Assembly (NCBI GenBank): GCA_027449865.1
Contig: DAIDKV010000145.1
Span: 1-61,911 of the forward strand
Direction of reading: 5' to 3'
From: Planctomycetales bacterium
Lineage (GTDB): Bacteria; Planctomycetota; Planctomycetia; Isosphaerales; Isosphaeraceae
DNA length: 61,911 nucleotides
A program made the position numbers and the translations under genes. The notes under the pieces are model-generated. The model saw only the letters and a list, made by a program, of their open reading frames with translations, had not been told where the DNA came from and ran no database searches. Positions 33,613-38,072 of this stretch are shown piece after piece (the stretch's first letter is position 1; every line of letters starts with the position of its first letter).

Positions 33613-34812
33613 ATGCGGATCGTCCACATCATTACGCGCTTGATCCTGGGTGGAGCGCAGGAGAATACCCTCCTGACCGTGGACGGTCTCCATCACGACC
33701 ACGGTGACGACGTCACTATCATCACCGGGCCGGCCGAGGGCCCCGAGGGCGATCTGTTCGACCGCGCCGAAGCGCGTGGTCTGAAGGTCGAACTCATGCC
33801 GGAACTGGTCCGCGCGATTCGGCCGATGACGGACCTGCACGCGTACAAAAAGCTTCGGGCTTCGATCCGCCGACTGACGCCCGAGGTCGTTCACACGCAT
33901 AGCTCGAAGGCAGGCATCCTGGGACGTGCCGCCGCCTGGGACGAGCGTATCCCGGCGATCGTCCACACAATTCACGGGCTGCCGTTTGGCCCTTTCGAGA
34001 CGCCGATGAAGAACCGCCTCTACATCGCACTGGAACGCTGGGCAGCCCGTCGATGTGATGCGATCGTCGGCGTCTGCGACGCGATGGCCGAGCAGGCGCT
34101 GGCGGCCGGCGTCGGCCGTCCCGAGCAATACTCGACCGTTTACAGCGGGATGGATGCCGACGCATTTCTCCATCCGCCCCGATCGCGCGAGGAGGTCCGG
34201 CGCGAACTGGGCCTGGCGGATGACGAGGTCGCGTTTGCGACGGTCGCCCGGCTCTTCGAGCGGAAGGGGCACGAAGATATCCTCGCGATCGCACCTCGAG
34301 TGATCGCGGAGAATCCGAAGGTCCGATTCGTCTGGATTGGCGATGGCCTCCTTCGCGACCGGCTCTCGGCGGAGATTTCGCGCCTTGGGCTTTCGGGCTC
34401 CTTCATCCTGACGGGTCTGGTCCCGCCTGGCCGAATTCCGGAGCTACTCCAGGCCGTCGACGCGGTGATCCATCCGAGCCTTCGCGAGGGACTGGCGAGG
34501 GTATTGCCTCAAGGGTTGCTTGTCGGGCGGCCCGTGATCAGCTACGACGTCGACGGAGCGCGCGAGGTGGTTCTTCCCGAGACCGGCATCCTGCTGAAGC
34601 CGCGTGACCTCGAAAGCCTGGCCTCCGGAATTCTCCGCCTTGCGGCCCATCCTGAGCACCGGGCGGCGATGGGCATTGAGGGGCGCCGGCGCTTCGCCGA
34701 TCAGTTTCGCCATGAGACGATGACCCGCGAACTACGATCACTTTACCAGCGGCTGCTCGCCCACCCCGCGCCGGGACGTCGCCAGATTGGGAACCTGGTC
34801 GACCGCGGGTGA
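33613..34812 (+). CDS. GT4 glycosyltransferase
   Basis: 399 residues, start ATG 33613. N-terminal acceptor half: IITRLILGGAQENTLLTV and VVHTHSSKAGILGR; C-terminal donor half: VARLFERKGHEDIL, IGDG, LTGLVPPGRIPELLQAVDAVIHPSLREGLARVLPQGLLVG (quoted partly), the EX7E region. This is the EpsD/CapM-like group making exopolysaccharide or lipid-linked glycans. The last 75 bases overlap, tail to tail, the opposite-strand GT39 gene. Sugar and acceptor unknown. Confidence 0.84.
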   Translation: MRIVHIITRLILGGAQENTLLTVDGLHHDHGDDVTIITGPAEGPEGDLFDRAEARGLKVELMPELVRAIRPMTDLHAYKKLRASIRRLTPEVVHTHSSKAGILGRAAAWDERIPAIVHTIHGLPFGPFETPMKNRLYIALERWAARRCDAIVGVCDAMAEQALAAGVGRPEQYSTVYSGMDADAFLHPPRSREEVRRELGLADDEVAFATVARLFERKGHEDILAIAPRVIAENPKVRFVWIGDGLLRDRLSAEISRLGLSGSFILTGLVPPGRIPELLQAVDAVIHPSLREGLARVLPQGLLVGRPVISYDVDGAREVVLPETGILLKPRDLESLASGILRLAAHPEHRAAMGIEGRRRFADQFRHETMTRELRSLYQRLLAHPAPGRRQIGNLVDRG

Positions 34813-36426
34813 GTCCGCCTCCTTCACGACGGCCAGGTACATCGCCTGCTTCTTTCCCTTGGTCAGCCGATACCCGTCGATCTCCTCGACGACCTCGACA
34901 TCGAGCCCAAAGTGACTTCGCATGACGGGGATCTCGAAGTCGAGCAGGACGGTGGCCACGGATCGTCCACCGCTAATGTGCCGAAAGAAGCCGTCGCGGT
35001 CGCGGATCAGAGCGATCGGATGGCCCAGCTCGTAGACGATTCCCGGTTCCTGATATTCGAGCAGGACCGGCTCAATCGCGCGTCTTTGCGAGAGCTCGCC
35101 CAGCTTCCGTCCGACGACCCGAGAAGTTCTCGCCGGCTCACCGATCGGGATCACCCAACCGGTCGCGAGGATGAGCACGATTCCCCAGCAACCGGCCAGG
35201 GCGAAGATGGCCGGCTCGGATTGGCCTCGCCTGAGCATGAGAACGCCAGCAACGGTCCCCACGGCGATCAGCCCGGCGAGCACGATCAGCGGGCCGAACA
35301 GAGCATCCGAGACGATCACCCCAACGCCGAGGATCGCGAGCGAAAGGCCCACTCCAATCGTCGCCAGCATGGCCACCGAGAGACGGCCGAGGCGAAGATC
35401 GCGGATGTTTTCGCGGCGGTCGGCCATCGCGACGATCGTCCAGGCGACCAGCAGCGCGCACGAGGGAAACGCTGGCAGATAATAGTGAATCAGCTTGGTT
35501 CGGAAGCACTCCAGCAAGATCATCGGACCCGCGATCCAGCCAAGCAGGTAAGCGAGGGTCGGGTCCGACTTCCGGCGAGCCCAGGCAGCGGCGATTCCGA
35601 CCGGTAGCAGAGCCGACCATGGATAGAAGACCACAGCGGAGACCGTTGCATAATAACCCGGGAATCCCCCGTGCGTTTCGACATCCTGCGAGACCCGGCG
35701 GAGGATCTGGTCGCCGACAGCGAATCGCAGGAACTCACCGCGCGAAGCGATCGTCGCCGCGACGAACCAGGGCAATGTCAGCAGGACGAAGCTGGCGAGG
35801 CCCCATTTCAGGTGCATTCGACGGAGCGACGGCCAGGTCCATCCCCACCACTTCGCCAGCATCGCGGAGACCGCGACGAACGCCAGGCCGACCGGCCCCT
35901 TGGTGAGGAACGCCAGATTGAGCCCCGCCCAGAAGAGCGCGGCCGCCATCGGCGATTCGCGATGGCTCAGCACCCAGAGCGCCGCTTGACAGCCCAGCAG
36001 CCAGAGCGCGAGCGTGGCGTCGGTCGTCGCGAGTTTGGACTCGGCCGCGACGATCGGGGCCGTCGCATACGCGAGCGCGGCGAGCGTCCCGGCACGGGCC
36101 CCGAACATCCGACGTCCGAGCCACCAGACTCCCAGCACGGCCAGGGCCCCGGCCGTCGAGGAGACCAGCCGGGCGGCGAATGGGTTATCGCCAGCGATCG
36201 CGGTCGTAAGGCCAATGAGCCAGTAGATCAGAATCGGCTTGTGATACCGGGGCTCGCCGTTGAAGGTCGGGAGCAACCAGTCGCCGGATTGCCGCATCTC
36301 GCGAACGGCGACCGCGTACCGGGGCTCATCGCGGTCCCAGAGACCGGTCCGGTCGTTACCGGCCAGGTTGATCGCCAGGGCCATCACGAGGATCACGATC
36401 GGCTCGGCCCAGGTCCATCGATTCAT
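34738..36426 (-). CDS. ArnT/GT39-family membrane glycosyltransferase
   Basis: 562 residues from ATG 36426, the first start that places the family N terminus: a membrane helix, then LWDRDEPRYAVAVREM, the acidic periplasmic loop with the catalytic Asp/Glu, and YHKPILIYWLIG. Around ten further hydrophobic segments follow and a soluble C-terminal domain (about 440-562). The PMT_2/ArnT family moves a sugar (mannose, aminoarabinose) from an undecaprenyl carrier to lipid A or protein on the periplasmic side. Divergent from the radical-SAM-like gene with 141 bases between; its 3' end overlaps the GT4 gene. Confidence 0.86.
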   Translation of the reverse strand: MNRWTWAEPIVILVMALAINLAGNDRTGLWDRDEPRYAVAVREMRQSGDWLLPTFNGEPRYHKPILIYWLIGLTTAIAGDNPFAARLVSSTAGALAVLGVWWLGRRMFGARAGTLAALAYATAPIVAAESKLATTDATLALWLLGCQAALWVLSHRESPMAAALFWAGLNLAFLTKGPVGLAFVAVSAMLAKWWGWTWPSLRRMHLKWGLASFVLLTLPWFVAATIASRGEFLRFAVGDQILRRVSQDVETHGGFPGYYATVSAVVFYPWSALLPVGIAAAWARRKSDPTLAYLLGWIAGPMILLECFRTKLIHYYLPAFPSCALLVAWTIVAMADRRENIRDLRLGRLSVAMLATIGVGLSLAILGVGVIVSDALFGPLIVLAGLIAVGTVAGVLMLRRGQSEPAIFALAGCWGIVLILATGWVIPIGEPARTSRVVGRKLGELSQRRAIEPVLLEYQEPGIVYELGHPIALIRDRDGFFRHISGGRSVATVLLDFEIPVMRSHFGLDVEVVEEIDGYRLTKGKKQAMYLAVVKEADSPAVDQVPNLATSRRGVGEQPLVK

Positions 36427-36567
36427 CTGCGAAGGCGATGGAGGCACGGCTCCCTCCTGGAGACACGAGACGTCCCGACGTCGCTTCCTACCGGCGTCTT
36501 TTGAGAGAATAATGGAAGTCCAACGATTCGAGGAGAGGAATTTGCACGCCTCGGGGACCCGCCCACG

Positions 36568-37878
36568 ATGAACGAACACCGGACGGAGGCTGCCTGCCTC
36601 CTTCAGGATGGAGCCCTCTATCGGAACCGGATCGGACTCGAACCTACCGACCGCGAGGGCGATTTGATCTTCGCCGGCTTCAAGGCCGGGGCCTTCTCGC
36701 TCTACTTTGGCGACGCTCCGATCTACCACTTCGACCTGGAAGGAAGGTGGCAGCGCGCCTATCTCGACGGCCTGCATTACCTCAAGGGACTCGACGGAAC
36801 GGTTCACGCGATCGACCGGGTTCGCGAGGGGTCAAACCTCATGCTCCACCGGCGAAAACTCGCGTTTGGCGAGGCGGCCGACCTCGATGCGCATATCCGA
36901 TCGCTGGCTCTCGACCTCGATGGCCGTTTGCATTCCATGGCACTCCACGGCACTTTTCCACCGGTCGAAAAGGCCATTCCGCTCCCGATTTCCAGGCTCC
37001 ACGACTTTCTCGAGTCCATAAGTCGGTGGGACGCCGATACCTGGTTTCGCCAGCGAGAGCGGTACACCGCCATCTACGGCCCGTTGCCCTTCCTTCCACC
37101 CGACTCCCCAGGCGCGGTCGTCGTTCAGGCAACCCTCGGCCACGCCGACGGCCGCACTTTCGGACTTGCAAAGTCGGAAAACTTCTACAGGCGTTCTCAT
37201 GATGAATTCACCCAGCACGTCCGCGACGTTGCGGAACTCTGGGGACGTCGACTCGCTCAGACCCGGTCCGTATTCCTCGCCGGAGACGACGTCCTGCATC
37301 AGCCAGTCTCATCTGTCGAAGCCTATCTTGAGGCCATTGCCTCAAACCTCCCCAGCAGCCGCGATGCCTTTGAAAACGAGATCCGAATCGATGGAGCCTT
37401 CACCTTTCTCGACGACTTCGATGGACTCGATTACAGCGTCGACGATTGGCGACGCCTCGCCGATCGCGGTCTGCTTCGTGTCAACCTCGGTGTCGAATCG
37501 GGTGATCCCGATGTCCGGGAATTTTACAAGAAACAATGGAAGGATTCTTCCCTGAGAGAGATCGTCTCACGGATGAAGGCGGCCGGGATCGGTGCGAGCG
37601 TGCTCACGCTGGTCGGCGCGGGGGGGCTCGATCGAGCGGAGTCGCACGTGGAGCAGACGGCCCGACTGGTCGAATCGCTCGATCTCGGCCGGGGAGATTT
37701 CGTCTTCCTGCTCGACGAGGCCGAGATCCGCGATTCGGAGGCTTCTCCAACAGGATTCCGCTCGCTCCAGTCTGAGGAGAAGAGCGAGCAGCAGCGAAGG
37801 ATCATCGCGGCGATGGCCCCGATGAAGGCGAGAGGCGTGAAGACCCTTCCCTACCGGCTGGAGAAGCAGGGGATCTGA
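36568..37878 (+). CDS. Radical-SAM-like protein lacking the cluster cysteines
   Basis: 436 residues. The region VVVQATLGHADGRTFGLAK (185-202, then FYRR) corresponds to the cluster site of B12-less radical SAM proteins, usually of the form LGCxxxRCTFCxFY, but the three cysteines are replaced (His191 in the first place, one deletion, Gly199 in the third). The only cysteine in the whole protein is Cys10. The rest of the barrel is well kept: RSVFLAGDDVLHQP, LRVNLGVESGDPDVREFYKKQWK (in part), and the C-terminal ESLDLGRGDFVFLLD. It therefore cannot bind a 4Fe-4S cluster in the standard way and is a likely pseudoenzyme. A 61-residue ORF follows 8 bases on. Confidence 0.75.
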   Translation: MNEHRTEAACLLQDGALYRNRIGLEPTDREGDLIFAGFKAGAFSLYFGDAPIYHFDLEGRWQRAYLDGLHYLKGLDGTVHAIDRVREGSNLMLHRRKLAFGEAADLDAHIRSLALDLDGRLHSMALHGTFPPVEKAIPLPISRLHDFLESISRWDADTWFRQRERYTAIYGPLPFLPPDSPGAVVVQATLGHADGRTFGLAKSENFYRRSHDEFTQHVRDVAELWGRRLAQTRSVFLAGDDVLHQPVSSVEAYLEAIASNLPSSRDAFENEIRIDGAFTFLDDFDGLDYSVDDWRRLADRGLLRVNLGVESGDPDVREFYKKQWKDSSLREIVSRMKAAGIGASVLTLVGAGGLDRAESHVEQTARLVESLDLGRGDFVFLLDEAEIRDSEASPTGFRSLQSEEKSEQQRRIIAAMAPMKARGVKTLPYRLEKQGI

Positions 37879-37886
37879 GGAAGATC

Positions 37887-38072
37887 ATGAGCGCATTCAA
37901 ATACCCGGGCGGACGGAGCATCCCCACGCCGCCCGACCTCCTCGATCGGATGGTAGGGGATGCGGTCCACATTCTCTACGCAGTCGGCCTGATCGACGAA
38001 TCGTGGTTGCCGATGCTCCCCGAGCCGCTGGCGGAGCGGTTGCGGATGCTGCTGGAAGATCCCGAGGGTTAA
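37887..38072 (+). CDS. Small protein, no recognised family
   Basis: 61 residues, ATG at 37887 following GAGGAAG, only 8 bases after the radical-SAM-like gene, so probably co-translated. The middle is helical and moderately hydrophobic (DLLDRMVGDAVHILYAVGLI), the end LPEPLAERLRMLLEDPEG. No cysteines, no membrane segment long enough to be certain. It may be a partner of the protein before it. It converges on the VWA gene with 4 bases between. Confidence 0.55.
   Translation: MSAFKYPGGRSIPTPPDLLDRMVGDAVHILYAVGLIDESWLPMLPEPLAERLRMLLEDPEG

Follow-up and report, generated by a model that had tools for sequence, protein, structure and literature searches.

The window analysed here, a stretch of 61,911 nucleotides from a Planctomycetales bacterium (Isosphaerales, Isosphaeraceae), carries a radical-SAM-like gene with an open frame for a 436-aa protein (Table 1), in which C10 is the sole cysteine and, as the initial annotation had stated, neither a stop nor a frameshift is present. 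The gene lies in a block consisting of truA, a glycosyltransferase, a PMT-type transferase (opposite strand), the radical-SAM-like gene, VWA and MoxR genes (both opposite strand) and a PRPP-synthetase-like gene, and this block is kept in most of the loci examined. As called mechanically, the open reading frame of the PMT-type transferase (34738-36807, minus strand) reaches into the 5' part of the radical-SAM-like gene. Translation probably begins at the ATG at 36426, however, so that an overlap of the two genes is unlikely.

Table 1. Features of the radical-SAM-like gene and of the open reading frame downstream of it, in positions of the window.
Feature	Position	Strand	Remarks
Whole gene, N-terminal domain and cysteine-less radical-SAM-like barrel	36568..37878	+	436 aa
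N-terminal domain, residues 1-165, motif GAFSLYFGDAPIYHFDLEGRWQRA	36568..37062	+	No Pfam match
Degenerate radical SAM barrel, residues 169-436	37072..37875	+	Profile and alignment
Former cluster loop GHADGRTFGL, residues 191-200	37138..37167	+	Ancestral Cys columns now H192, T197 and L200 (69-sequence alignment)
Barrel strand LGVESGD, still present, residues 307-313	37486..37506	+	G308 invariant (alignment)
Motif GAGGLDRAESH, still present, residues 350-360	37615..37647	+	Common with the intact family (alignment)
C-terminal motif K425-x3-Y429-x3-K433	37840..37875	+	Conservation of K425 and K433 limited to the cysteine-less clade (alignment)
61-aa ORF, remnant of a ~204-aa NTP_transf_5 (PF14907) nucleotidyltransferase gene	37887..38072	+	Sister-genome comparison

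Two partners had been suggested for the protein from its immediate surroundings, and neither suggestion held up. The 61-residue protein encoded downstream matches the two ends and an inner piece of a whole 204-aa protein from a sister genome (G017, L121; PF14907 match at E=2.7e-8), from whose gene it differs by two in-frame inner deletions of 143 codons together. As a deletion remnant it is ruled out as a partner of the radical-SAM-like protein. Of 20 order-mate loci, 15 contain a VWA or MoxR gene, but this pair is on the opposite strand and neither gene adjoins the standalone N-domain genes described below, and because unrelated housekeeping genes belong to the same generally conserved block, adjacency is weak evidence of joint function.

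Radical SAM enzymes bind a [4Fe-4S] cluster through three cysteines located in the loop that follows strand 1 of a partial or full TIM barrel. The Pfam Radical_SAM profile (PF04055) matches the window protein at residues 232-365 (profile positions 46-163) with 26.5 bits, short of the curated cut-off of 29.5 bits, and the cluster-motif part of the profile is exactly the part left unmatched. Among 24 members of the family, 21 match the same profile at E<=0.1 (best 2.1e-8). A profile of the family's barrels finds intact-motif proteins in other Planctomycetota (open frames of 390-550 aa, E-values down to 1.1e-40), for example LPPDQYNAIYLQPAIGCAYGRCTFCSLFQGIPFRAR, and in the reverse search a profile of cysteine-intact proteins matches the window protein at E=3.2e-48. 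Judged by these sequence comparisons, the homology of the barrel to radical SAM proteins, as proposed by the initial annotation, is not a chance match. The strand NLGVESGDPDVREF, which had been named as retained, does align with the GLESG strand that the intact family conserves. The barrel strands past the cluster loop also match PF04055 and the solved members AprD4 (6fd2), OxsB (5ul2), Elp3 (6iad) and 9ccb, although the E-values for the cysteine-less family are weak (0.003 and above) and no match covers the cluster loop. Structure models of the full protein and of the barrel, made from three near-identical sequences (the window protein and two related loci), are poor. AF2 gives alternating strands and helices at pLDDT 49.8 and pTM 0.44, and Foldseek with the barrel model returns no more than suggestive matches, in which radical SAM proteins (lipoyl synthase, HemN, Elp3, AprD4) are mixed with further TIM barrels at a TM of about 0.4.

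The loss of the cluster ligands is complete. In a joint alignment of 69 sequences, comprising 40 order-mates and 29 intact relatives from elsewhere in the phylum, the three ligand columns hold cysteine in 29/29 intact relatives and in 0/40 proteins from the window's order. Residues 185-209, singled out in the initial annotation, are indeed the former cluster site; the intact relatives, however, space their cysteines as CX4CX2C and not as the CxxxCxxC that had been assumed. Replacements at the first cysteine position vary (H in 15/40, D in 10/40, plus others), and L104, L106-L108 and L110 have a loop that is shortened or lost altogether. Five members (L104, L106-L108; G012), which belong to one sub-lineage or species, are missing still more of the barrel signature. 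In the orthologue from G012 (L072, 6299-7633, minus strand) the N-terminal domain is clear and the C-terminal half is without a barrel-profile match. With all ligands lost, the protein should be unable to hold a [4Fe-4S] cluster or to generate a radical from SAM by the known route, and we infer that the window protein acts without radical chemistry. As far as its sequence can tell, the protein is a member of the radical SAM superfamily by descent, given the homology of the barrel core, and fails the defining feature of a radical SAM enzyme.

This state is shared throughout the order. Matches were found in 42 of 45 genomes (21 genera, one family) and in all 26 of those of good quality. A low-quality sister assembly (G018) has an in-frame stop near the C-terminus of the gene. 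The cysteine-less sequences form one clade, with an SH-aLRT of 99 in a quick barrel tree and support of 100/100 in a careful barrel tree with the loop columns left out, so that a single cysteine loss is enough to account for all 40 order-mates. In these trees the clade sits beside the cysteine-intact two-domain proteins and apart from a family of standalone ~295-aa barrels. The outgroup, together with the rarity of gaining three ligands, argues that the direction of change was loss and not gain. The window's own genome yielded no cysteine-intact homologue and no second member of the subfamily, and a search of 198 class genomes with the intact profile turned up no cysteine-intact two-domain member among its strong matches, all of which are in the window's order. 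In the rest of the class the profile has weak matches (E 1e-8 to 1e-15, open frames mostly of 380-870 aa), which look like generic radical SAM proteins.

The nearest intact relatives are two-domain radical SAM proteins from other Planctomycetota classes (L074-L087), which are without a curated family name. They share with the window family the order of domains, a homologous barrel (profile E about 1e-40) and a homologous N region (hhalign 96.4%, E=1.3e-9), but differ from it in that CX4CX2C is present, conservation lies in the barrel and variation in the N region. The standalone ~295-aa proteins (L085, L088-L102), with the motif GC(S)xNxCTFCxMYR, belong to the same barrel subfamily and have their CX4CX2C loop at the same position, but they are without the N-terminal domain, their cysteines are intact and they form a further outgroup in the tree. 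This ~295-aa family is widespread, has CX4CX2C and not CX3CX2C spacing, and has only sub-threshold matches in NCBIfam. In the part of the literature searched, no description was found of a cysteine-less radical SAM clade of this sort or of the N-terminal domain.

Calling the protein a radical SAM homologue, as had been done at first, is right for the barrel and incomplete for the whole, as the N-terminal ~165 residues are a distinct domain and hold most of the conservation. A class-wide search with the whole protein gave matches limited to residues ~3-150, in proteins mostly of 160-200 aa. These standalone proteins of other Planctomycetia (160-190 aa) have no barrel at all and are homologous to residues ~10-130 of the window protein (hhalign 99.4%, E=7.8e-22). 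Their common pattern, GFR..G..S.YFG.DP.YHF...G.LRRAF..G, aligns with GFK-AGAFSLYFGDAPIYHFDLEGRWQRAYLDG in the window protein. C10 (36595-36597, within TEAACLL) is nearly invariant in the order and absent from the standalone proteins. Neither Pfam nor NCBIfam has a family for the domain, and a sequence search of solved structures with it gave no match (best E 0.64). The neighbourhoods of standalone N-terminal domains and of intact fusions contain no conserved partner gene. The domain is thus met in three states, namely the intact fusion in other classes, the cysteine-less fusion in the window's order, and the barrel-free domain in the rest of the class, where many genomes, though not all, have it. 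In a sample of the phylum, standalone domains that were clear were seen only in the window's class.

Selection on the gene is purifying and unevenly distributed. Whole-gene dN/dS, calculated by NG86 for seven close pairs, is 0.16-0.38. For the window gene against its nearest sister the values are 0.19 over the whole gene, 0.02 over residues 1-120 and 0.30 over the barrel. Of 435 pairs within the order, 98.9% have an N-terminal core that is better conserved than the barrel, as do all 266 pairs of matched divergence (barrels 30-45% identical), whereas among the intact fusions the N region is the better conserved part in 0/78 pairs. In the cysteine-less clade, constraint has shifted away from the barrel and onto the N-terminal domain.

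Pseudoenzymes in general keep a fold under purifying selection after losing its catalytic residues, and here an enzyme homologue has lost its catalytic ligands and is kept by selection across an order. The non-catalytic role put forward in the initial annotation is probable in view of the lost ligands, their clade-wide absence and the purifying selection. We consider it likely that the window protein is a pseudoenzyme, i.e., a two-domain enzyme that has lost catalysis, in which the barrel is a drifting scaffold and the job now falls to the N-terminal domain. The ancestral protein would have combined a small N-terminal domain with a radical SAM barrel of the CX4CX2C type, and all three cluster ligands would have been lost in the ancestor of the window's order (Isosphaerales/Isosphaeraceae). 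There the barrel may have persisted as a drifting scaffold or regulatory body while gaining some clade-specific conserved residues, and elsewhere in the class it would have been shed, leaving the N-terminal domain alone; this order of events among the three states is a reconstruction. Since the domain is kept alone elsewhere in the class, we infer that it carries a binding job, with a partner or ligand that was probably once presented to the barrel.

The barrel itself may do more than serve as a scaffold, as its dN/dS of 0.16-0.32 is well below 1 and reflects real selection. It is possible, though unlikely, that the barrel has been neofunctionalised, so that the former active site binds a small molecule (SAM, a sugar or a nucleotide) or carries out cluster-free chemistry, with the clade-specific residues forming the new site. 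The alignment reveals newly conserved residues confined to the clade (R228, Q231, R317, W324, D383, K425, K433), and the GxESG motif, including G308, and the GAGG...H motif are kept, which indicates that the barrel is still under selection. However, several members have broken loop and strand motifs (loop deletions, GLAFG, GIASG), the N-terminal domain everywhere drifts more slowly than the barrel, and N-terminal domains exist without any barrel. Far less probable is the retention of the cluster through other ligands, such as His, Asp, C10 or a cysteine near residue 180. In its favour, C10 hardly varies within the order, PPDC (about residue 180) supplies a cysteine in many members and His is the commonest replacement at residue 192. 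Against it, C10 is the only cysteine of the window protein, residue 192 is His in only 15/40, several members have shortened the loop or lost it, and no three new ligands are conserved clade-wide. Least credible of all is a decaying, functionless pseudogene, a reading to which the missing cysteines, the nearly unrecognisable barrel of G012 and the in-frame stop in the poor G018 assembly might lend themselves, but which the dN/dS values and the breadth of the family largely refute, as frames are open in essentially all genomes of the order, the sequences form one clade with a conserved N-terminal domain (57-60% mean identity), gene order is conserved, and the nearest relatives (91% and 88%), in which intact cysteines would have pointed to recent decay, are also cysteine-less at a dN/dS of about 0.2.

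If the window protein is a pseudoenzyme as proposed, its lineage presents the successive stages side by side, with an intact fusion, a cysteine-less fusion and a barrel-free domain. One might speculate that the loss of catalysis accompanied an aerobic way of life. Radical SAM proteins receive their annotation as enzymes on the strength of the barrel alone, and a ligand-less clade spanning an order means that such annotation can mislead. The three stages (enzyme, cluster-less fusion and free N-terminal domain) also make the solo role of a radical SAM accessory domain testable. More broadly, we see an even chance that this is an undescribed planctomycete domain family whose function has outlived its radical SAM enzyme, and that the domain would perform a conserved, possibly class-wide job in Planctomycetia that is independent of radical chemistry.
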